DNA of 38,410 bases from Fidelibacterota bacterium (GCA_027021785.1 JALUTR010000216.1:1-38410); one strand, 5' to 3'. Counted from the first letter of the stretch, positions 2,821-30,593 are shown. Numbers and translations are program-made. The notes: generated by a model from the letters alone, not told the origin.

Positions 2821-3709
2821 ACACATTATTACCATAGCCTGGCTCCTTTTCCTGACCTCCGGTTGCAGCACCGAACCGGAATTGAATCCGGATAAATTAC
2901 ATGAATACCGGTTTATTCTCTGTACACTCAATATGACGCCCGGCAGGTACGGGATTCCTGAGCAAAACTTCGTCCAACAAGTTAGTGTCCAGAAAGTACG
3001 CTACCTTATCGACTTGGTTTTCAATCCCGACAAAGAACAAACCTTTGGCGTTAATGACGCGGAAGTCTCCATAATCGGCCCCGACTCCACTTTTCACTTC
3101 AAAAATATCGGAAACGGTTTGTATGAATATGCGCGCCAGGATACGATTACACCTTTCCGATACGGCGCCCAATATTCCCTTAAGGTTATTTTCCCCGATG
3201 GAACAGAAGCTGTGTCGACGATTACTACGCCTATGATTTATTTCGAACCGAAAAAAGACACCATTCGGGTGCAACCCGATAGTGTCACCTCGTGGACGTA
3301 TCCACCGGAAGGCGGACGATACCCTTTAACATATACCGGAGCGCATTTCAGTGATACCATATTTTTCCGCATTACCGAAGGATCCGTATTAAACAGCCCG
3401 GCTCCCTCCATTTTCTTATCAGGCCATTCCTGGAATACCGAATCCTTTTGGGTAGCGATGGACACAACTGCAGAATCACTTATCTTCCGGACCGCCGCCG
3501 ATAAACCCGGCGATTTTGTTAACCGTAAAGTGATTGGATCGTATATGGTCTTTCATCAGGGATTTATCGATTATAACAATATGACAAGAGATGATTCCTG
3601 GCCGATAGAGAATCTTGAGGAAATATCAAATATCAATGGAGCTTTTGGAATATTTACCGCGCCTCCTTATGACATTAATAAACAATATATTTTAGCCTTG
3701 AAAAAGTAA
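2810..3709 (+). CDS. DUF4249-like surface lipoprotein partnered with the TonB receptor
   Basis: A 299-residue lipoprotein. I chose the ATG at 2810 because it gives a textbook lipoprotein signal (MRFKHIITIAWLLFLTSGC, lipobox LTSG/C). The open frame extends further upstream only within the receptor gene. The mature part has the pattern of DUF4249 proteins: an early segment on the variable, an Ig-like module with VNDAEVSIIGPDSTFHF, the GNGLYEY turn, and a GAQYSLKVIFPDGTEAVSTITTP strand pair. In Bacteroidota these lipoproteins are encoded next to TonB receptors and are thought to sit on the outer-membrane surface as accessory components. The 11-bp overlap with the receptor supports the pairing. 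The family call rests on pattern recognition only and the C-terminal half is less typical. Confidence 0.72.
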   Translation: MRFKHIITIAWLLFLTSGCSTEPELNPDKLHEYRFILCTLNMTPGRYGIPEQNFVQQVSVQKVRYLIDLVFNPDKEQTFGVNDAEVSIIGPDSTFHFKNIGNGLYEYARQDTITPFRYGAQYSLKVIFPDGTEAVSTITTPMIYFEPKKDTIRVQPDSVTSWTYPPEGGRYPLTYTGAHFSDTIFFRITEGSVLNSPAPSIFLSGHSWNTESFWVAMDTTAESLIFRTAADKPGDFVNRKVIGSYMVFHQGFIDYNNMTRDDSWPIENLEEISNINGAFGIFTAPPYDINKQYILALKK

Positions 3710-4417: not shown

Positions 4418-6226
4418 TCAATATCCCCCGGGCGAAAACGGCCATAAAAGGGGGATAAGAAAACTGGCGGTAATCCACAGCACAATCGACAGCGGCAATC
4501 CAACCCGCATGTAATCGGTGAATTTATACCCGCCGGGGCCATAAACCATCAGGTTGGTCTGGTACCCCACCGGCGTGATAAAAGAAGACGAAGCAGCAAA
4601 ACAAATGGCGAAGATAAACGGACGGGGGTCCAATCCCATTTTGGCGGCCATGGTCAGGGCAATCGGTGTCATGATAATCGCGGTGGCGGCATTGGACGAA
4701 ACTTCGGTCATAATCAGCGTGATCAAATACAGCACAGCCAACATGATGTTGGGTTGAATCGATTCCGGGAAGCGGGTCATCAGATTGTACAGGTTGGTCC
4801 CTACCCAATCGGCCGTGCCGCTGGTCTGAATTACCTGTCCCAGGGGAATCAGGGCGGCGATCAGGATAATTACCTGCCAACGGATGGCGTAGTATGATTC
4901 ATTGGGCGTGATCAAGCCGAAAACCAACAAAACCGCCACTCCGATGATGGTTCCTTTCAGGATGGTTGTATACCCGACGGCGGCCAAGCCGATAATGCTT
5001 AAAATAACAACAATGCTTAACCACCAGAAACGCTGTTTCCGTAAAGTAACATCTATTTCCTCCATGACGATGAAGTCACCGGTGGAGGCAAGGGCGCGTA
5101 TTTTTTCCCGCGGTCCGTAAACCAACAACGTATCGTACGCCGCCAGTAAGACATGGGCGATCTTTCTCCGGAATAATTCCCCCTCCCTCCGGATCGCCAG
5201 CACAAAACAGCCGAAGCGGCGACGAAAATTCACTTCTTTCAAACTCTTACCGACCAGGTCGGATTTGTCGGTCAGCAAACATTCCACCAACACATTATTT
5301 TCACGTAAAAGTTCACTGTGGGTCAATTTCTGATCCGTAAGCATGGCCACCTTTTCCACTTCCTTCAGTCGCAGGAAATTATCCAACGCGCCACGAATGA
5401 AAAGAATATCTCCGGCCTGTAGTTTCGTGTCGCGGATATTGGTGGTAATGGTTTTATCGCCACGGAGAATATCCAATACGGTCACGTCGTAATTCTTATT
5501 AAGTCCCCGCTGCAAACAGGTTTTACCTACCAGGGGAGAATCCGGCAGGACTTTCACCTCGGTCAGGAAACCACCCATGTGGAAACTTTTGGTCAAACTT
5601 GATGTGACGGTCCTCGAAGGCAGCAGTTTGTTCCCAAGCAATAGGATATAGGATAACCCGATAACCAGTTGAATCGCGCCGTAGCGCGCGAACTCGAACA
5701 TCCCAAGTGGAATTTGATTGTCAGTTTTAACGAAAATGGAATTCACCAGTAGGTTGGTGGAGGTGCCGACCAGGGTAAGGGTTCCCCCAAGAATGGCGGC
5801 ATAGCTAAGGGGAATCAATACCTTGGACGGACTGATCCGATAGGATTGCGCGATCCGCATGGTGATGGGAATAAATATGGCGACAACGGCGGTATTATTA
5901 ACAACCGCGGAAGCTAAGGCAATGCTAAGCAGGTAAACGGTCAATCCCAACACCATGGAACGATTGAAGAGCTGGTTGATTTTTACAATCAAATATTCCA
6001 ATACGTGCGTTTTCTGGATGGCATTACTCAATACAAACAGTAAGGCAATGGTAATAACCGCCGGATTCGAGAAACCTGTAATGGCATCATTTGGCGATAC
6101 CAATCCGGCGATCAGCAAGATTCCCAGGATGGTAAATGCCGTTACATCAATCGGCAACGCTTCCGTCACAAACAGGATGAAACCCAGGGTAACTATACTT
6201 AATACAACGGCAATTTCGACAGTCAT
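4418..6226 (-). CDS. SLC13/DASS-family anion permease with two RCK_C (TrkA-C) domains
   Basis: A 602-residue inner-membrane transporter of the ion-transporter/DASS superfamily. An N-terminal membrane half (about 1-200) holds the first signature (NNTAVVAIFIP near 110, and GTSTNLLVNS near 154-163, the SNT-type hairpin that binds carboxylate or sulfate and Na+ in the family). Two soluble RCK_C domains follow at about 205-290 and 300-390 (SPLVGKTCLQRGLNKNYDVTVLDILRG...AGDILFIRG and VGKSLKEVNFRRRFGCFVLAIRREG...DTLLVYG). A second membrane half carries the matching SNAAT motif at about 511-515 and GYQTNLMVYGPGGYKFTDY near the end. SLC13 proteins with inserted RCK_C domains are often annotated as sulfate or citrate permeases; the substrate is not readable here. 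It is a close paralogue of the next gene on the same strand. Likely uptake of sulfate or a dicarboxylate. Confidence 0.92.
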   Translation of the reverse strand: MTVEIAVVLSIVTLGFILFVTEALPIDVTAFTILGILLIAGLVSPNDAITGFSNPAVITIALLFVLSNAIQKTHVLEYLIVKINQLFNRSMVLGLTVYLLSIALASAVVNNTAVVAIFIPITMRIAQSYRISPSKVLIPLSYAAILGGTLTLVGTSTNLLVNSIFVKTDNQIPLGMFEFARYGAIQLVIGLSYILLLGNKLLPSRTVTSSLTKSFHMGGFLTEVKVLPDSPLVGKTCLQRGLNKNYDVTVLDILRGDKTITTNIRDTKLQAGDILFIRGALDNFLRLKEVEKVAMLTDQKLTHSELLRENNVLVECLLTDKSDLVGKSLKEVNFRRRFGCFVLAIRREGELFRRKIAHVLLAAYDTLLVYGPREKIRALASTGDFIVMEEIDVTLRKQRFWWLSIVVILSIIGLAAVGYTTILKGTIIGVAVLLVFGLITPNESYYAIRWQVIILIAALIPLGQVIQTSGTADWVGTNLYNLMTRFPESIQPNIMLAVLYLITLIMTEVSSNAATAIIMTPIALTMAAKMGLDPRPFIFAICFAASSSFITPVGYQTNLMVYGPGGYKFTDYMRVGLPLSIVLWITASFLIPLLWPFSPGGY

Positions 6227-6972: not shown

Positions 6973-7003
6973 ATAACCGCAAAGATCCAGAGCACGCAAA
7001 GAG
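6973..7003 (-). repeat. R2 dispersed repeat, copy 1 (CTTTGCG-type)
   Basis: On the minus strand it reads CTCTTTGCGTGCTCTGGATC followed by TTTGCGGTTAT. It matches, in inverted orientation, the copy at 7056-7085, and it matches the copy at 30548-30577. On the plus strand it is followed by two T-runs (about 7004-7023), so it could act as a transcript end, although no plus-strand gene lies upstream. The function is unknown. Confidence 0.6.
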
Positions 7004-7055
7004 ATTTTTTTAATGTTTTTTTCTTGAGTCAAATAATGCTTTCGTACTTTAATAA

Positions 7056-7098: not shown

Positions 7099-8895
7099 TC
7101 AGGAAAAAGGCCAGAATATGGGGATGAATATAATGGCGGCTATCCAGAGCGCAACAGCCAACGGCAAGCCGACCTTGATATAGTCGGTAAACTTATACCC
7201 CCCCGGGCCATAGACCATTAGATTGGTTTGATAACCAACCGGGGTTACCAACGAGGCCGAAGCCGCGTAACAAATCGCGAAGATGAAAGGACGGGGATTC
7301 AGACCCATTTGGGATGCCATTACCAGGGCAATGGGGGTCATGATGATAGCCGTCGCCGCGTTGGATGACACTTCCGTGAGAATCATTGTTAACAAATAAA
7401 TAAACGACAGCAACACAATGGGTTGATACTGGTCGGGGAAAATACCGATCAACCGGGACAATCCCCCGCCGATCCAATCGGCCGTGCCGGTACTCTGGAT
7501 TACATAACCCAGGGGGATCAGGGCCGCAATCAGGACGATAACCTGCCAGTGGATGGATTGATAGGCTTCATTGGGACGCAGGACCCGGAAGATCAGGAGA
7601 ATTACCACACCGACCAAGGTCCCTTTGAGAATCGGTACCCACCCTAAAGCGGCCAACATAACCGCCAGAACAATAACAACTGCACTTAACCACCAAAACC
7701 GATGCTTCTTCAATGTCGCGTCGATTTCCTCTAATACGATAAAATCTCCGGAGGCTGCCAGTTCATTGATTTTATCACGTGTCCCATAAACCAATAATGT
7801 ATCGAATACATTCAAAATCACATGGGAAATCTTCCTTCGTAAAATGGTTCCTTCCCGGCGAATCGCCAATACGAAACACCCGAATTTTTGTCTGAAACCG
7901 GTATCTTTTAAACTCTTTCCAGGCAAACCGGATTTTTCCGTGAGCAAACATTCAACCAGGATATTGTTCTCGTTCCGCAATTCCTCATGGGTAAGTTTTT
8001 CATCGGTTAACATGGTGATTTTTTCAATTTCCTTCATTCTCAGGAAGTCATCCAATGATCCCCTGACAAAGAGCACATCCCCTTCCTTTAAAACCGTGTC
8101 GCGAATGTTGGTGGAAATCAATTTATCGCCCCGCAAAATATCCAGAACAATAACATCATAATTCTGGTTAATACCACGTTCCAGGCACGTTTTCCCCACT
8201 AACGGCGAATCTTTCGTGATTTTCACCTCGGTCAGATAGCCTCCCATGTGATAGCTCTTCGTCAAACTTGAAGTCACCGTTCTTGACGGCAACATACGAT
8301 AAGCAAAAACGATGATATAGACCAACCCGATCGCCAGTTTGATTCCACCGAACCTGGCAAATTCAAACATCCCCAATGGTGGATAATCGGTGCTTTGGAG
8401 CAAAATCGAATTGACCAATAAATTCGTGGAAGTACCCACCAGGGTCAGAGTTCCGCCCAATACGGCGGCATAACTCAGGGGGATTAGAACCTTCGAGGGG
8501 CTGATACGATACTTATGTGCCAGCCGGATCGTTACCGGCATGAATATCGCCACAATGGCGGTATTATTCACGACGGCGGAAGCGATCGCGATGGAAACGA
8601 GGTACAGGGTTAATCCCAGGGTCTTGGACCGCCGCGCGAGTTTATTGAGATGTAAAACCAGATATTCCAACAGGCCGGTCTTTTGCAAAGAGTGGCTCAG
8701 GATAAACAACGCGGCGATGGTAATTACCGCCGGATTGGAGAAACCTTTTATACTGTCTGCCGGGGACAATAATCCCGATACCAGTAATATCCCCAAGACC
8801 GTAAGCGCCGTAACATCAATAGGCAATGCTTCCGTTACAAACAAAATGAAGGCTAACCCGATGACAAACAGAATGAAACCGATTTCTATGGTCAT
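7099..8895 (-). CDS. SLC13/DASS-family anion permease with two RCK_C domains (paralogue)
   Basis: A 598-residue paralogue of the 4418-6226 product, collinear over its whole length and identical in long stretches (FILFVTEALPIDVTA near the N-terminus, SYAA-LGGTLTLVGTSTNLL, and MVYGPGGYKFTDY near the C-terminus). The layout is the same: membrane half with NNTA and GTSTNLL signatures, two RCK_C domains (SPLVGKTCLERG...DVLFVRG; GLPGKSLKDTGFRQKFGCFVLAIRREG), membrane half with SSNAATAIIMTPIAL. Differences lie mainly in loops and in some membrane segments (VLAVMLAALGWVPILKG versus ILSIIGLAAVGYTTILKG). Duplication followed by divergence suggests related but distinct substrates or affinities. The ATG at 8895 is the natural start because it aligns with the paralogue. 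The substrate is unknown. Confidence 0.92.
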   Translation of the reverse strand: MTIEIGFILFVIGLAFILFVTEALPIDVTALTVLGILLVSGLLSPADSIKGFSNPAVITIAALFILSHSLQKTGLLEYLVLHLNKLARRSKTLGLTLYLVSIAIASAVVNNTAIVAIFMPVTIRLAHKYRISPSKVLIPLSYAAVLGGTLTLVGTSTNLLVNSILLQSTDYPPLGMFEFARFGGIKLAIGLVYIIVFAYRMLPSRTVTSSLTKSYHMGGYLTEVKITKDSPLVGKTCLERGINQNYDVIVLDILRGDKLISTNIRDTVLKEGDVLFVRGSLDDFLRMKEIEKITMLTDEKLTHEELRNENNILVECLLTEKSGLPGKSLKDTGFRQKFGCFVLAIRREGTILRRKISHVILNVFDTLLVYGTRDKINELAASGDFIVLEEIDATLKKHRFWWLSAVVIVLAVMLAALGWVPILKGTLVGVVILLIFRVLRPNEAYQSIHWQVIVLIAALIPLGYVIQSTGTADWIGGGLSRLIGIFPDQYQPIVLLSFIYLLTMILTEVSSNAATAIIMTPIALVMASQMGLNPRPFIFAICYAASASLVTPVGYQTNLMVYGPGGYKFTDYIKVGLPLAVALWIAAIIFIPIFWPFS

Positions 8896-18098: not shown

Positions 18099-19691
18099 AT
18101 GCCTACGACATACGATTACATCATTATCGGATCGGGATTTGGCGGGTCAGTCTCCGCTTTAAGGCTGGCTGAAAAAGGATACAGTATCGCGGTCATCGAA
18201 CAGGGAAAGCGCTATTACCCGACCGACTTTCCAAAAACCAACTGGAACCTGCGTAAATATTTCTGGCTGCCCCAATTTGCTTTGTACGGTTTTCAGGCCA
18301 TGACCCTGATGAAGGACGTGTTTATTCTTCACGGAGCCGGAGTCGGCGGGGGCAGTCTGGTCTACGCGAATAACTTATTAATCCCCCCCGATGACGTGTT
18401 CAACGATCCCGCCTGGGGCGGCCCCGGCTGGAAGGAAAAATTGGCGCCCTATTACGAACGGGCCCGCAAAATGCTCGGCGCGACCCCCAGCAAGGTCGTC
18501 GCCAAAGCGGACAAACTTTTACAGGAATGCGCCGCGGAAATAGGAAAGGGGGACACCTTCCATGTGAACGATGTGGGGGTATTCTTCGGCGAACCGGGAG
18601 TTACCGTACCGGATCCCTATTTCAAGGGGCAAGGTCCCGACCGGACAGGATGTATGCTATGCGGCGGGTGCATGGTCGGGTGTCGTTACGGCGCGAAAAA
18701 TACCCTGGATATGAATTACCTTTATTTCGCAGAAAAATTGGGCGTCGGGATTATCCCCGAAACATGCGTCATCGATGTTCGCCCCCGGGGCGATCAGGGG
18801 TATCTTCTTACGACCGAACGGGTTACCGGTGTCTTTCGTCGCAGACAAACATACTTCTCAAAAGGGGTTATTTTTTCCGGCGGGGTCATGGGCACGGTAA
18901 AATTATTGTTAAAATGCAAAACCAACGGTTCCCTGCCCAATCTTTCGGACCAATTAGGGAATTTCGTTCGCACCAACAGCGAGGCCCTTGTCGGAGCCAA
19001 AGCACGCGGGAAGGACGTCGATTATTCCCAGGGGATTGCCATTACTTCCGGAATTTATCCCGATCCCGACACACATATCGAAGCCGTTCGCTACGGCAAA
19101 GGACAGGATGCCATGTCCGGGCTGGCCACGATCCTGGTCGGCGGAGGCAAACCGTGGCCCCGTCCCCTGCGCTTCCTGGGGAACATTATTCGTCACCCCA
19201 TCAGATTCCTGAGATCTTTGTACCCTTTTGGATGGGCGCAAAGAACCACGATTCTGTTGGTGATGCAAAAAATAGACAACTATCTCCGTTTCGAATACAA
19301 ACGCCGCTGGTGGCGACTTGGTGGTAAATCCATGAATTCCGATTGGAACACCGAAAAAAAGGTCCCCTCCTACATCCCGGTGGCTAACGAATTTGCGGAG
19401 CGTCTGGCAAAAAAAATGAACGGCGACGCGTTCAGTGTGTTACCGGAAGTTTTGTTCGACACCTCTTCCACGGCCCATATTTTAGGCGGTTGCAATATGT
19501 CCGAATCCCCGGATCAGGGCGTAATCGATTATTCAGGCAAAATCCATAATTATGACAATCTCTATGTAGTGGACGGCTCCATCGTGCCCGTCAATCTCGG
19601 CGTAAACCCCAGCCTCACAATTACGGCTCTGGCCGAATATATCATGGATCAATTCCCCGAGTACGACAACCATCCTGGTTGTCGTCTTTAA
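18099..19691 (+). CDS. GMC-family FAD oxidoreductase with ferredoxin-like cysteine cluster
   Basis: A 530-residue flavoprotein related to the cholesterol-oxidase/GMC group. Dinucleotide-binding motif GSGFGGS near residues 12-18, with the adenosine-ribose glutamate in VIEQGKRY; HGAGVGGGSLVYANN is the second FAD signature; the C-terminal SSTAHILGGCNMSESPDQGVID...YVVDGSIVPVNLGVNPSLTITALAEYIM carries the conserved His and Asn region. C185, C188, C191 and C195 (CMLCGGCMVGC) have the CxxCxxCxxxC spacing of a [4Fe-4S] ligand set, found in this oxidoreductase subgroup. The substrate is unknown; family members oxidise sterols or other alcohols. The last eight codons (DNHPGCRL) and the stop lie in the R1 repeat, so the native C-terminus probably ended near MDQFPEY. 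No ribosome site is evident. No signal peptide, so it is cytoplasmic. Confidence 0.9.
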   Translation: MPTTYDYIIIGSGFGGSVSALRLAEKGYSIAVIEQGKRYYPTDFPKTNWNLRKYFWLPQFALYGFQAMTLMKDVFILHGAGVGGGSLVYANNLLIPPDDVFNDPAWGGPGWKEKLAPYYERARKMLGATPSKVVAKADKLLQECAAEIGKGDTFHVNDVGVFFGEPGVTVPDPYFKGQGPDRTGCMLCGGCMVGCRYGAKNTLDMNYLYFAEKLGVGIIPETCVIDVRPRGDQGYLLTTERVTGVFRRRQTYFSKGVIFSGGVMGTVKLLLKCKTNGSLPNLSDQLGNFVRTNSEALVGAKARGKDVDYSQGIAITSGIYPDPDTHIEAVRYGKGQDAMSGLATILVGGGKPWPRPLRFLGNIIRHPIRFLRSLYPFGWAQRTTILLVMQKIDNYLRFEYKRRWWRLGGKSMNSDWNTEKKVPSYIPVANEFAERLAKKMNGDAFSVLPEVLFDTSSTAHILGGCNMSESPDQGVIDYSGKIHNYDNLYVVDGSIVPVNLGVNPSLTITALAEYIMDQFPEYDNHPGCRL

Positions 19692-19748
19692 TCAGTGTAC
19701 TGAACAATTAACTGTTGTCGTCAAGCAGAGATGCTTGACGTACACGTG
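19664..19748 (+). repeat. R1 hairpin repeat, copy 1
   Basis: About 85 bp with two hairpins. Hairpin A pairs CGACAACCA with TGGTTGTCG around TCC (19664-19684). Hairpin B pairs CGTCAAGCA with TGCTTGACG around the GNRA-type loop GAGA (19719-19740). It overlaps the last codons and stop of the oxidoreductase gene and is followed directly by copy 2. It sits between two convergent genes. A related copy is at 22325-22391. Confidence 0.8.
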
Positions 19749-19831
19749 CGACAACCATCCCTGGTTGTCGACGTAAATCAGGGCACCGGACAACTGACAG
19801 TCGTCAAGCAAGCCTGCTTGTCGAAGTAACA
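19749..19831 (+). repeat. R1 hairpin repeat, copy 2 (tandem)
   Basis: Starts exactly where copy 1 ends. Hairpin A (19749-19770) is again a perfect 9-bp stem, CGACAACCA and TGGTTGTCG, with loop TCCC. Hairpin B (19802-19823) keeps 8 of 9 pairs, with one T-T mismatch and loop AGCC. The linker preserves the pattern AATCAG..AC.G.ACAA. A possible third fragment, GTGCAGGATGCCTGAG, follows near 19850-19865. Confidence 0.75.
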
Positions 19832-19871
19832 CATAGGCGGTGCTTCACGTGCAGGATGCCTGAGACACTTT

Positions 19872-21248
19872 TTATTTTAATATGAGCATTTTCTTCGTTT
19901 CCCGGAACCCGCTTCGCGTCCGGAGCCGGTAAAAATAAACTCCGGATGTGTAGTCTGACGCATCGACAAAAATCACATGCGGTCCCGGATTCTGCTTCGC
20001 ATTTACCAGGGTATTAATCTTTCTACCGGAAATATCAAAAATATCGAGAAAAACATATTCGGGATCGATCAACATATATCTAATAACGGTAGTGAATCTG
20101 AAAGGGTTGGGAAAGTTTTGGAACAGTTGCAACCGAATATGGAGCGTATCATCCGGGTAGGGGCCGCCCCAGGGCTCCGGATAAACATCAGGCGGATAAA
20201 AACTACGTGCATTTGAAACGAGATCGGCCAAACCTTCCCCCAATACGACTGCGATCCTGAAGGATAAGGTATCACCAACTTTCAAATCGTAGGGCCCGAA
20301 CGACAAAACAAAATGACTTCCTTCGTAGTTTACCTGATTGTCCATTATCTCACCGCCGGCCATTAATTCGCGGTATTTCTCACTGTCGGAATAAGGAACA
20401 ATTCCCGGCGGGCCATTGCGATTGTTACCATACTTGAACGTCCAGTTTATCGAATCCGCGGCCAGGTATTCATCCGCTTGATCCGGGAATATCTGAAATC
20501 CGATGGGACTGATCGCCTGGCCATCCGTACCACCGGGGCCATCCAATCCGACTGCCATATTCAAGTCTCCGTAAAACAACGCCCTGTCGTCAGGTACATA
20601 GCAATCAAAGGCGCTGCAATTAATGCCGACCCTGGGAACCACCCAATAAGTAAAGTAGACCCCTTTCAAATCCCACCTGGTAGGGATAACATAAAAAGAA
20701 AGAACGATTACATCTTCAAGCAGAGAACTGCTCCAGGCATAGCTGGTTTGGATTACGTCAATATATAACGGCTTATGATCAGGAACTATTAAAGCGGCTT
20801 CATTATAATCACTATAACGGCACACGAAATCCTGATCGGAAAAACCCACATAATAATCCGGCCAATAGGGGATGTTAGCGGTATTCCCATGTGAAACAAC
20901 CCAAACGGTATCCCAGGGTTCGCCGGAAGCATAAAATTCAAAACCACTCATGAAAGGATTCCAGGAAGTTGTCACGCTCACCAGGGTGTCATTATCGGGA
21001 GTAATCCCACCAACCCATAAACCGGCCTGGGCAATGTGTTCTTCACCGCTGTTCGGAGGGTATTCACAATTGAATCGCCCGGAATAATACCCTCCTGTGG
21101 GAGAGAGTGTTCCGACGTTGGAAATCAATAACCGGACTTTTCCCACGTCATGACGCTTGTAATCGAAGACGGAGTCCTGAGCGACTAAGAAATTAGTGAA
21201 CGTGATCAGGCCGATAAACCAAATCAAAATTATTCTAAGAACAAGCAT
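19872..21248 (-). CDS. Secreted protein with type IX secretion C-terminal sorting domain
   Basis: A 458-residue exported protein. Signal peptide about 1-23 (ILIWFIGLITFTNFLVAQ). The middle (about 24-360) is beta-rich and aromatic, with segments such as QAGLWVGGITPDNDTLVSVTT and GEPWDTVWVV, and a repeated YxDP-free pattern I do not recognise as an enzyme. The last 80 residues are a standard por/type IX sorting domain: LQLFQNFPNPFRFTTVIRY, FDISGRKINTLVN, GVYFYRLRT and the final KKMLILK. The protein is therefore expected to cross the outer membrane through the T9SS and be anchored at or released from the surface. No T9SS apparatus gene is in the window. It converges on the oxidoreductase gene across the tandem R1 copies. 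Function of the N-terminal part is unknown. Confidence 0.88.
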   Translation of the reverse strand: MLVLRIILIWFIGLITFTNFLVAQDSVFDYKRHDVGKVRLLISNVGTLSPTGGYYSGRFNCEYPPNSGEEHIAQAGLWVGGITPDNDTLVSVTTSWNPFMSGFEFYASGEPWDTVWVVSHGNTANIPYWPDYYVGFSDQDFVCRYSDYNEAALIVPDHKPLYIDVIQTSYAWSSSLLEDVIVLSFYVIPTRWDLKGVYFTYWVVPRVGINCSAFDCYVPDDRALFYGDLNMAVGLDGPGGTDGQAISPIGFQIFPDQADEYLAADSINWTFKYGNNRNGPPGIVPYSDSEKYRELMAGGEIMDNQVNYEGSHFVLSFGPYDLKVGDTLSFRIAVVLGEGLADLVSNARSFYPPDVYPEPWGGPYPDDTLHIRLQLFQNFPNPFRFTTVIRYMLIDPEYVFLDIFDISGRKINTLVNAKQNPGPHVIFVDASDYTSGVYFYRLRTRSGFRETKKMLILK

Positions 21249-21301
21249 CGAAACATTATCGCATTTATAAAACGGCTATAGGAAATACCCCCGTCCTATT
21301 T

Positions 21302-21335
21302 TACACCGATTTTGTGTAGTCAAAAATCGGGTGTA
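21302..21335. promoter_or_regulatory. Inverted repeat in a divergent promoter region
   Basis: The arms TACACCGATTTT and AAAATCGGGTGTA pair over 12 bp with one bulged g, around an 8-10-nt spacer, and TTTTT follows on the plus strand (21335-21339). It lies in the 224-bp region between the divergent T9SS cargo gene (start 21248, minus) and the dehydrogenase (start 21473, plus). No gene ends on the plus strand just upstream, so an operator or a 5' leader structure is more likely than a terminator, though the shape fits one. Confidence 0.45.
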
Positions 21336-21472
21336 TTTTTAACATGATTGAAATTGTAAAAAGCATGATCTACATACCCGGTGACCGGAGCGTTCCGGCC
21401 ATGTAGAACATAGCTGCAATTTTCATCTTTTTCATCAATTTTCAAACAATAATCCGAACCAACGGGGATTTT

Positions 21473-22264
21473 ATGAGAAAAAACAGTATTCTTGAGGACA
21501 AAACAGCATTAATCACCGGCGCCTCCAGCGGACTGGGTACTGATTTTGCCAGGGACCTGGCAAACTACGGCTGCAACCTGATTCTGGTGGCCCGCCGGGA
21601 GGACAGGTTGGCAGCTTTGAAACAGGAAATAGTCGATAAACATAACGTTGAAGTTGCCGTTATACCGATGGATTTACTTTCGCCGGACGCACCGCGGATT
21701 ATGTATAATCAAATCCGGAAGGCGGGGAAAACCGTCGCCGTCCTGATAAATAACGCCGGATTCGGAATCTACGGTAAATTCATCGACACCCCTTGGGACA
21801 AAATAAAAAAACTAATCGATCTGGATATAGGAGTTTTGGTACAATTAACAAAATTATTCCTGGGTGACATGGTTAAAAACGACTTCGGTTACATTATGCA
21901 AATAGCCTCCATCGGGGCATTCCAACCAACCCCGATGTACGCCTGTTACGGGGCGGCAAAAAGTTTCGTTCTCAACTTCGGAGAGGCCCTGAATTATGAA
22001 TTAAAAGATACCAACGTATCCTGCACCGTTGTGTCGCCGGGGCCAACCAAGACCGAGTTTCTCGAGGTCGCCGGACAAAAACCCAACCTTTATCAGCGCC
22101 TGACCATGATGTCCGGCGAAGAGGTCGCGCGAATCGGAATCACTGCCATGTTAGATAGAAGATCAAGCGTTGTTACCGGCAAGATGAACGCTTTTACCGT
22201 CTGGCTGAACCGGTGGGTCCCGCGCCGATTATCAACGGCATCGGCCTATGTGCTGACGAAATAA
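21473..22264 (+). CDS. Short-chain dehydrogenase/reductase
   Basis: A 263-residue NAD(P)H-dependent oxidoreductase of the classical SDR family. The cofactor motif TGASSGLG starts near residue 15; NNAG is near 92-95; the catalytic Ser is in IASIGAF and the Tyr-Lys pair in YACYGAAK (YxxxK). ARRED after the second strand, with two basic residues, suggests NADP(H) preference. The length is normal. The closest named relatives by pattern are the DltE/YqjQ-like SDRs (VVSPGPTKTEF, SGEEVARIGITAMLDRRSSVVTG), substrate unknown. The C-terminal NRWVPRR...AYVLTK extension is common in that subgroup. It converges with the MobA-like gene; R1 copy 3 lies between the two stops. Confidence 0.93.
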   Translation: MRKNSILEDKTALITGASSGLGTDFARDLANYGCNLILVARREDRLAALKQEIVDKHNVEVAVIPMDLLSPDAPRIMYNQIRKAGKTVAVLINNAGFGIYGKFIDTPWDKIKKLIDLDIGVLVQLTKLFLGDMVKNDFGYIMQIASIGAFQPTPMYACYGAAKSFVLNFGEALNYELKDTNVSCTVVSPGPTKTEFLEVAGQKPNLYQRLTMMSGEEVARIGITAMLDRRSSVVTGKMNAFTVWLNRWVPRRLSTASAYVLTK

Positions 22265-22324
22265 AAATGTGGGAATAGGATGAATTGGTAACTTCCGTCC
22301 ACGCTGCGCTACGGCGGGTAAGCA

Positions 22325-22391
22325 CCGGTTGTCGTCTCTAATTCGGTTTAAACTGACCTTCGTTGTCAGGCGGAGATGCTTGACGCACAAA
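22325..22391 (+). repeat. R1 hairpin repeat, copy 3 (5'-truncated)
   Basis: Matches copy 1 from GGTTGTCGTCT onward (TAAT, a variable linker, then GTTGTCAGGCGGAGATGCTT and GACGCACAA). Hairpin B (22365-22384) pairs GTCAGGCG with TGCTTGAC around the same GAGA loop. Two of the eight pairs are G-U wobbles that hold only in plus-strand RNA. The left half of hairpin A is missing. The repeat encodes the last 15 or so residues and the stop of the opposite MobA-like gene. Confidence 0.75.
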
Positions 22392-22967
22392 TTTTTCATA
22401 TTCATCCATCGTGTCGCAATCAATGAATATTCCTTGCGAATCGACCGGCACCGGAACGGTATCCCGCTCATATTGTTGCAGCAATTTTCGCGCCCCCCGG
22501 TCCCCGTCCAGGTTGGCCAAATCGGCAAACAACCGCCTAGGAAACAGAACCGGGTGGCCTCGTCTTCCATCCTTAACCGGAAAAACAATTTTATCCCCGC
22601 CCTCACTTTCAAAAACGGTTCTTAATTTCACCACGGTTGACTCTCCGATGAAAGGCATATCTCCCAAGGCAATGAGAACGCCGCTCGTTGCTTGCGGCAA
22701 CGCCTCAATACCGCGTTTGACGGAAGCCGACATGCCTTCACGCCACTCGGGATTGAAGGCGAAAACCGCTTCCGTGTCTTTCAAAACGCGACGGATATTC
22801 GCTTCATCAAAACCGGTAACCACAATAACCGGTCGACAACCACCGGATAGGACCGTTTCATACACAATCCTGACCAGGGGGTGACCGGACAAAGGCAACA
22901 GGAGTTTATTCTTTTGGGGGATTCGGGCTGATTCTCCCGCCGCCAGAATAATGGCCGCGATTCCCAT
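22338..22967 (-). CDS. MobA-like nucleotidyltransferase
   Basis: A 209-residue NTP transferase of the MobA/MocA type, which moves a nucleotide onto a molybdopterin or sugar-phosphate-like acceptor. The signature AAIILAAGESARIPQKNKLLLPLSGHPL is the nucleotide-binding loop with its Lys, followed by IVVTGFDEANIRRVL, NPEWREGMSASVKRG and LIALGDMPFIGESTV, which contains the metal-binding Asp (GDMP). GRRGHPVLFPRRLFADLANLDGDRGARKLLQ is the acceptor-side block of the molybdenum cofactor cytidylyl/guanylyltransferase group. No other molybdenum-cofactor gene is nearby. The frame opens at an ATG at 22982; I prefer 22967 because GAGG lies 9 nt upstream of it. The C-terminal VRQASPPDNEGQFKPN is encoded within R1, so the tail is not family-conserved. 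Confidence 0.88.
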   Translation of the reverse strand: MGIAAIILAAGESARIPQKNKLLLPLSGHPLVRIVYETVLSGGCRPVIVVTGFDEANIRRVLKDTEAVFAFNPEWREGMSASVKRGIEALPQATSGVLIALGDMPFIGESTVVKLRTVFESEGGDKIVFPVKDGRRGHPVLFPRRLFADLANLDGDRGARKLLQQYERDTVPVPVDSQGIFIDCDTMDEYEKFVRQASPPDNEGQFKPN

Positions 22968-23136
22968 GCCTGACGACCTCATGATCGCTGATTATAGCGG
23001 GGAATTGAACATGCGTCGGACAATATCGTAATTCCATTCCCGGTTGAAAATTTTCGTTTCCCGGGAAAATCCCTATCCTGCGGTAAACGAGCGGATACAA
23101 GGCACAAAAAGTATCCCTTTCGGCATCGAATCATGA

Positions 23137-29982: not shown

Positions 29983-30593
29983 CCTCCCTTCCTAAACACC
30001 AAACCACGGTATACGACTAAATCTCTTTGTTCCACCGAACAATCACTTCTCCATTCCTTCAATCCGTTATGCGAATTATACAGTTCCCCCGGAAAACCGG
30101 GTTGGAATATTGAGAAGTTAATTGTTTTTATACGTTCTGTACTCCCCTCAACTTTTAAGTATGAAAATAATTAAATTTTCTAACCCGGACATTTCAGTTG
30201 TAATGGAATGGAATAATCAGGTCAAACAGCGTAAAATATGAACAAATTAATTTACATGTTTAGCGGTCATTTCCGCACTAATTAATAACCCCGCGCTTAT
30301 GTTTTTCCACTTTACCAATATTATCCGTCGGTTTGTACCGTGTTGGTTTTGTTTCTTTAAGAGGTTTGAGTTGGGAAGAATTCGGGTTGCGATGTTGAAA
30401 GGAACATTTATGATATCCAATATTCAGATCTTTACTCTGCTTAACTTGGATATTATCCTCATGGGTGTCCTCCCGAAAAATCATGTTAACTTATAAGATT
30501 ATGCCGATTGTTCCCCATCGCTCGTGAGTATTTTTTATTTTCAATAACCTTGCGTTCTTTGCGTCTTTGCGGTGGTAATCAGGCTGAATGCGC
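29983..30593. other. Intergenic spacer carrying an R2 repeat
   Basis: 611 bp without a credible gene between the propeller protein stop and the kinase start (both minus strand). Two small overlapping frames at 30278-30496 on opposite strands are AT-rich and not protein-like. The right end contains the R2 copy at 30548-30577. The left end (29983-30180) should hold the kinase promoter; no consensus is evident. Confidence 0.55.
30548..30577 (+). repeat. R2 dispersed repeat, copy 3
   Basis: The plus strand reads CCTTGCGTTCTTTGCGTCTT then TGCGGTGGTA, the clearest version of the family, made of phased CTTTGCG words. It lies 17 bp past the stop of the minus-strand propeller gene, in the same position and orientation as copy 2 relative to the permease stop. 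On the minus strand it runs into an A/T-rich tract (GGTTATTGAAAATAAAAAA). Confidence 0.65.

Follow-up and report, generated by a model that had tools for sequence, protein, structure and literature searches.

A dispersed two-hairpin repeat in a Fidelibacterota genome as the probable BIME of a single-copy RAYT transposase

Repetitive extragenic palindromes (REPs) are short, many-copy, mostly intergenic hairpins headed by a 5' tetranucleotide tag, and they combine as inverted pairs and tandem arrays into bacterial interspersed mosaic elements (BIMEs) or REP doublets forming hairpins (REPINs). In the systems termed REPtrons they flank a single-copy REP-associated tyrosine transposase (RAYT) with which their stems co-evolve (PMC2817692, PMC3116915). 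The enzyme is expected to bind one REP strand through tag, stem and loop (PMC8266576, and structures cited in PMC6006769). RAYT/REP pairs described so far almost always carry GTAG or GTGG, the only tags for which the published survey looked. Here we analyze a 38,410-nucleotide stretch of Fidelibacterota DNA (the window; contig C216 of a 3.2-Mb, 446-contig genome, hereafter G000), in which a repeat of two hairpins, A and B, designated R1, occurs as three units.

R1 resembles the REPtron components in its tagged, mostly intergenic palindromes, its inverted pairs and tandem arrays, and its place around a single-copy RAYT with which its stems co-evolve, and we consider it very probable that it is a BIME/REPIN, the cognate non-autonomous element of one RAYT (TnpA_REP) encoded once in the genome, on contig C85. 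Sequence comparison shows an inverted pair with 5' GTAC on each half, homogeneous tandem arrays throughout the genome, arrays around an intact RAYT, co-divergence of RAYT and stem, and allelic gain or loss of units. The kind of system is already known, and its natural GTAC tag is a variant feature; in the literature searched, coverage of which was incomplete, GTAC appeared together with RAYT and REP terms in a single paper, as an engineered mutant.

The repeat family and its RAYT

Hairpins A and B are one element in inverted orientation, A on the plus and B on the minus strand, a relation missed by the original prediction, which had treated them as separate hairpins. Each half consists of 5'-GTAC, a stem of 7-9 bp, the loop ATCCY and the return stem. 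Read on the strand with the TCC loop, A is 5'-GTAC G-A-CAA-C-C ATCCT GGTTGTC and B is 5'-GTAC G-T-CAA-G-C ATCCTT GCTTGAC; the stems are unlike at two positions and compensated at both. R1 as a whole is two inverted REPs, which a single strand shows as GTAC-A ... B-CATG, and this pair recurs head to tail. A and B each exist in a short form with a 5-6 nt loop and a long form with a loop of ~35 nt that contains an inner stem.

Copies in G000 were counted by pattern searches, covariance-model searches and a REP search of retrieved contigs. A covariance model built from 14 units gave 64 matches, counting both strands of the same units, the motif GTACGWCAASCATCC gave 73 matches versus 8 for its reversed control, and the contigs examined contained 78 REPs versus 0 in reversed sequence; the genome has at least 70 half-sites. 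The B palindrome was found on ~14 contigs, with many copies at contig ends, where a repeat that breaks the assembly would be expected. GTAC is the tag of 49 of the 78 REPs and GTGC of 9, and in the sister species (G001) 37 of 43 REPs carry GTAC; the loop starts with ATCC in 43 and ATCT in 14 of the G000 REPs. Adjacent REPs alternate in strand (+- 27, -+ 16, ++ 3), with neighboring tags usually 1-2 nt apart and tail-to-tail spacers of mostly 36-37 nt. The REPs lie mostly between open reading frames (ORFs), as short, many-copy, intergenic palindromes, and the strand alternation together with arrays of 10 and 7 REPs yields the repeated inverted pairs of a BIME/REPIN.

These two arrays stand at the C85 locus, 10 REPs directly upstream and 7 downstream of an intact ORF of 218 aa (P0001), so that the gene is flanked by its cognate REPs as in a REPtron. 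The protein scores 24.9 against Pfam Y1_Tnp (cut-off 23). A profile of seven RAYTs had E. coli TnpA_REP (4ER8, E 6.2e-6) as its sole match in the PDB; P0001 alone, in a single-sequence search of the PDB, gave no significant match. The motif NHVH (N115 H116 V117 H118), W160 and Y181 are invariant in the 7 RAYT proteins, providing the HUH motif, Trp and catalytic Tyr expected of a RAYT. The motif YVLNNP (YILNNP in two homologs) is also present.

A Y1 transposase between repeats would also suit an IS200/IS605-like insertion sequence (IS), with array and RAYT moving as a unit and the dispersed units being deleted remnants. R1 would have in common with such elements hairpins read as single-stranded DNA (ssDNA) by an HUH/Tyr enzyme, with a guide tetranucleotide preceding the foot on its 5' side. 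The RAYT, however, is present once versus ~70 REPs rather than in multiple copies, the arrays have the same orientation on both sides of it, and there is no mobile unit with distinct left and right ends. Moreover, the best family is REP_Tyr_transpos, IS200 being reached only at E 0.003-0.005 by two homologs, and we regard an insertion sequence as very improbable.

Could R1 instead be a neutral, decaying repeat with no present function? Unit 3 and the B half of unit 2 are clearly decayed, and many singleton REPs are degenerate. The stems in the C85 arrays, however, are nearly all perfect, and in the sister species, whose RAYT is 81% identical, neither the reading frame nor the catalytic residues are disrupted, which makes simple decay quite unlikely.

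By eye, the motifs of the C85 RAYT are nearest to TnpA_Y1 subclass 2.4 (RAYT group 4), which is characterized by NH[IFV]H, WQ, YIxNNP, a long or double-foot GT[AG]G REP and REP insertions in the gene (PMC6006769). Shared with this subclass are NHVH, Y[IV]LNNP, a length of ~200 aa and occurrence outside Proteobacteria, and a more distant RAYT relative from Bacteroidetes (FW602_bin.19; L031) is flanked by a GTAG double-foot REP (GTAGGGC...GCCCTAC; GTAGGGCAACCAGGCTGGTCGCCCTAC, at 2945-2990 and 3637-3668). In contrast to subclass 2.4, the C85 protein has WT in place of WQ, there is no REP within its gene, and R1 is not double-foot.

The start of hairpin B (CGTCAAGC...) recalls another group, the CGTC-tagged REPs, a superfamily that lacks a transposase of its own (Di Nocera et al. 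2013, PMC3733652): B begins with CGTC, and its 9-bp stem and 4-nt loop fit. Here, however, CGTC lies within the stem, pairing with GACG instead of serving as an unpaired tag, hairpin A begins with CGAC, and a dedicated, cognate RAYT is present. On the grounds of the pairing and the RAYT we rejected membership in this group, which is extremely improbable.

Several points weigh against assigning R1 to a RAYT. Where described REPs carry a GTAG or GTGG foot tag, the conserved tetranucleotide of R1 is GTAC (GTGC), and S. maltophilia TnpA_REP did not cleave a GTAC substrate (PMC8266576). With ~70-80 copies R1 falls short of the >100 per genome that are usual for REPs, though the draft assembly breaks at these repeats. 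Against NCBIfam NF047646 (REP_Tyr_transpos) the C85 ORF scores 67.8 bits (E 8.7e-19), just under the 80-bit cut-off, and the RAYT homologs span 67.8-79.3 bits. The W motif is WT, WE or WK and not WQ, and the subclass placement of the RAYT is provisional. Finally, the gain or loss of units described below could also reflect recombination between repeats, no transposition event having been seen. R1 further differs from described REPs in a TCC loop that is common to lineages and in having long inner-hairpin variants in both halves.

G000 contains three further Y1 transposase genes, each beside a palindrome family of its own: a gene with an internal TAA on C88 (L027; CCCAGCCGTTTACGGCTGGG), one on C381 (L028; AAGTCCCCGGCACTTTGAAAGTGCCGGGGACTT) and one on C372 (L030; GTAGGGTGCATTCCATGCACC/GGTGCGTACAACGCACCCTAC). 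The genome thus holds four RAYT-palindrome pairs in total.

RAYTs and hairpins across lineages

The association extends beyond a single genome. Among 61 genomes searched, G000 included, nine have a RAYT homolog at E < 1e-30; the R1 model finds matches in 8 of these 9 versus 9 of the 52 others (Fisher p = 6e-5). The RAYT is present in each of the four genomes that have 10 or more R1 matches. Perfect hairpins (8 bp or longer) are concentrated beside the gene, with 47 in 23 of 24 flanks at 12 loci versus 0-3 in first-order shuffles. Only 3 were found farther out, in 16.8 kb of flank, and none lay inside the RAYT genes.

The stems differ by lineage, with examples being GACAACC in G000, G001 and G023, AACAGGC in G016, CACGACC in G049, and ATAATC/ACAATC in G007 and G057. 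Homolog REPs are tagged GTAG, GTGG or GTAA. Within a genome, covariation is uninformative (one pair with a double change) because the copies are too similar, and a between-lineage alignment was therefore needed. Across 16 aligned loop-4 hairpins, both sides change in 8 of the 9 stem pairs, and the 5' GT and first loop T are invariant. The covariation score is 0.81 versus 0.04-0.11 with the partners slid; as the rows were chosen for near-perfect stems, the percentage paired is no independent test, whereas the spread of pair types is. RAYT and REP thus co-evolve here as in described REPtrons.

On contig C21 of G057 (L139, L070) the RAYT is in two pieces, with a TAG or frame break, and at least 15 R1-like matches are still present in that genome.

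RNA signals, DNA hairpins and a possible guide tag

The original prediction pointed to selection on the transcribed hairpins, whether as a terminator, a 3'-end stabilizer of the plus-strand gene or a mobile RNA module. It correctly recognized a maintained hairpin repeat as opposed to random palindromes, and unit 3 does have the two stem pairs it described, which are G-U on the plus strand and mismatched as A-C on the minus strand. REPs elsewhere are reported to stabilize mRNA or terminate transcription (cited in PMC6006769 and PMC3733652), and on crude gene and ORF calls R1 has a weak link to gene ends: up to 150 nt away there are 25 gene 3' ends versus 12 5' ends (p = 0.047).

The signals specific to RNA, however, do not extend to the family. 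Among 121 REPs of G000 and G001 read on the unit strand, stem mismatches comprise 14 G-U and 15 A-C. Orientation relative to the gene ending at the site is sense in 13 cases and antisense in 12. The GAGA loop, noted as GNRA-type, is not shared by the family, nor is a GNRA loop conserved: GAGA accounts for 4 short B loops in unit orientation, versus 7 AGGA, 2 GGGA and 1 TGGA. Convergent placement holds for all three window units and fails as a rule: the same crude calls place 6 arrays of G000 between convergent genes, 7 in tandem and 5 in divergent contexts, with 14 undetermined. Neither 19661-19868 nor 22289-22391 was found to contain a terminator-like site with a T tail, and there is no Rfam match above the gathering score in the window or at the C85 locus. 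In A the conserved GTAC tag and TCC loop are carried by one strand and in B by the opposite one, which fits recognition of ssDNA hairpins by a RAYT and not a single RNA strand.

Selection on plus-strand RNA is accordingly left with no wobble, orientation or loop support, and we judge an RNA element unlikely. The mobile option came close, at the level of DNA. Hairpins are kept, gene ends are mildly preferred and no strand is preferred, the placement also reported for REPs generally (Di Nocera et al., PMC3733652). R1 is in the first place a DNA hairpin element rather than an RNA one. It is probably retained close to the 3' ends of genes because insertion is least harmful there; transcription through the REPs may have side effects, and if mRNA 3' ends are affected at all, this would be incidental. 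An apparent RNA element is recast here as a family of DNA hairpins whose enzyme has been identified, and this alters what should be measured.

R1 apparently owes its spread through the genome to its own single-strand transposase. By analogy with the TnpA_REP enzymes of E. coli, Stenotrophomonas and Marinomonas, the tagged strand would fold when the locus becomes single-stranded, and the RAYT would bind the stem, loop and tag of that one strand. Its tyrosine would then cut near the hairpin foot and pass the strand to another site, a transfer by which REPs could multiply and arrays grow or shrink. The cleavage dinucleotide would, as in those enzymes, be selected by pairing with the tag, GTAC presumably acting as a guide that specifies GA or GT.

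When GTAC replaced GTAG, the Marinomonas enzyme cut at GA and GT, and the Stenotrophomonas enzyme did not cut (PMC8266576). Of the 78 G000 REPs, 51 have GA as the two bases following the right arm, 11 have GT and 8 have GG; among the 43 of G001, GA stands there in 26 and GG in 15. The G in first position is partly explained because it also belongs to the closing stem pair. The GA/GT distribution would fit a GTAC guide. In homolog cases read by eye, GTGG goes with CA and GTAA with TA, alongside GTAC with GA or GT. We tentatively raise the possibility, which we hold to be somewhat doubtful, that the RAYT family contains a natural series of guides (GTAC, GTGC, GTAG, GTGG, GTAA and GTCC) whose 3'-foot dinucleotide tracks the guide, the tag being an evolvable guide that retargets cleavage. 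Engineered Marinomonas mutants had suggested guide-directed retargeting (PMC8266576). With GTAC and other fourth bases, lineage-specific stems and a TCC loop that is kept, this RAYT family offers a natural test of the guide model and of co-evolution between a domesticated transposase and its palindromes.

Unit turnover and the copies in the window

Copy number is dynamic. Contigs C74 and C119 carry alleles of one locus with 2 and 3 units, respectively (L022:3144-3401 and L018:33-365), between flanks that are near-identical apart from a few single-nucleotide polymorphisms. At the end of the gene for a MobA-like protein, the sister species carries two long B REPs together with one A REP, in place of the window's single decayed unit. 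The minus-strand MobA-like ORF of the window reads through the entire B half of unit 3, and in both species the protein tail opens with VRQAS, encoded by REP B; the insertion at this gene end is therefore older than their split.

A second gene end is that of a GMC-type oxidoreductase. In the sister species its only REP is a long A, located 13 nt past the stop codon. In the window the frame enters REP A and ends in YDNHPGCRL*, and no REP was found at this gene end in three relatives (G010, G011 and G006). REP sequence thus provides the C-termini of two window proteins, the GMC oxidoreductase (19662-19691) and the MobA-like protein (22338-22388), and C-termini supplied by REPs persist across species.

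Table 1 R1 halves and neighboring genes in the window
Feature	Position	Strand	Tag	Description
REP A, unit 1	19661..19684	+	GTAC	stem CGACAACCA/TGGTTGTCG, loop TCC
REP B, unit 1	19719..19743	-	GTAC (minus strand)	stem GTCAAGC/GCTTGAC, loop ATCTCT
REP A, unit 2	19746..19770	+	GTGC	stem CGACAACCA/TGGTTGTCG, loop TCCC
REP B, unit 2	19803..19868	-	GTGT	degenerate long variant with inner loop, left arm CTCAGGC
REP A remnant, unit 3	22289..22334	+		long variant, 5' arm decayed
REP B, unit 3	22365..22388	-	GTGC	stem GTCAAGC/GCCTGAC, loop ATCTCC
GMC-type oxidoreductase	18099..19691	+		last 9 codons (YDNHPGCRL) and stop in or beside REP A, unit 1
Convergent neighbor ORF	19872..21248	-		weak Por secretion C-terminal sorting domain match, below curated cut-off
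Short-chain dehydrogenase	21473..22264	+		upstream neighbor of unit 3
MobA-like nucleotidyltransferase	22338..22982	-		C-terminus VRQASPPDNEGQFKPN encoded by REP B of unit 3 and beyond

The three window units are related and lie at about the places first proposed, and their patterns recur above chance. The B pattern has 8 matches versus 0.35 expected, 6 of the 8 being the three units on both strands, and the A pattern has 7 versus 0.98 expected; no shuffle equaled either count. The A pattern is exact only in the two matches of unit 1, the remaining matches, with 3 mismatches, being background. Two 9-bp hairpins had been described as common to all units, but unit 3 lacks a 9-bp hairpin A and retains only its 3' arm; the covariance model matches it at C216:22289-22393 with 47.2 bits. 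Alignment to other genome copies identifies ~22289-22334 as the decayed 3' portion of the longer A form that contains an inner hairpin. The unit boundaries also needed adjustment: units 1 and 2 start 3 nt earlier, at GTAC and GTGC (19661 and 19746), and unit 2 reaches 19868 instead of 19831, its B half having been matched by eye to intact long B copies such as L022:3349-3401. A position just downstream of a plus-strand coding sequence proved inexact for unit 1, where the frame at 18099-19691 continues across hairpin A and terminates beyond it.

Elsewhere in the window, two adjacent minus-strand ORFs of 602 and 598 aa (4418-6226 and 7099-8895) are tandem paralogs with ~70% DNA identity over long stretches. 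An unrelated 31-nt dispersed repeat of the CGCAAAGA type occurs in inverted orientation at 6976-7006 and 30543-30573, the copies being 77% complementary with 23.5 kb between them.

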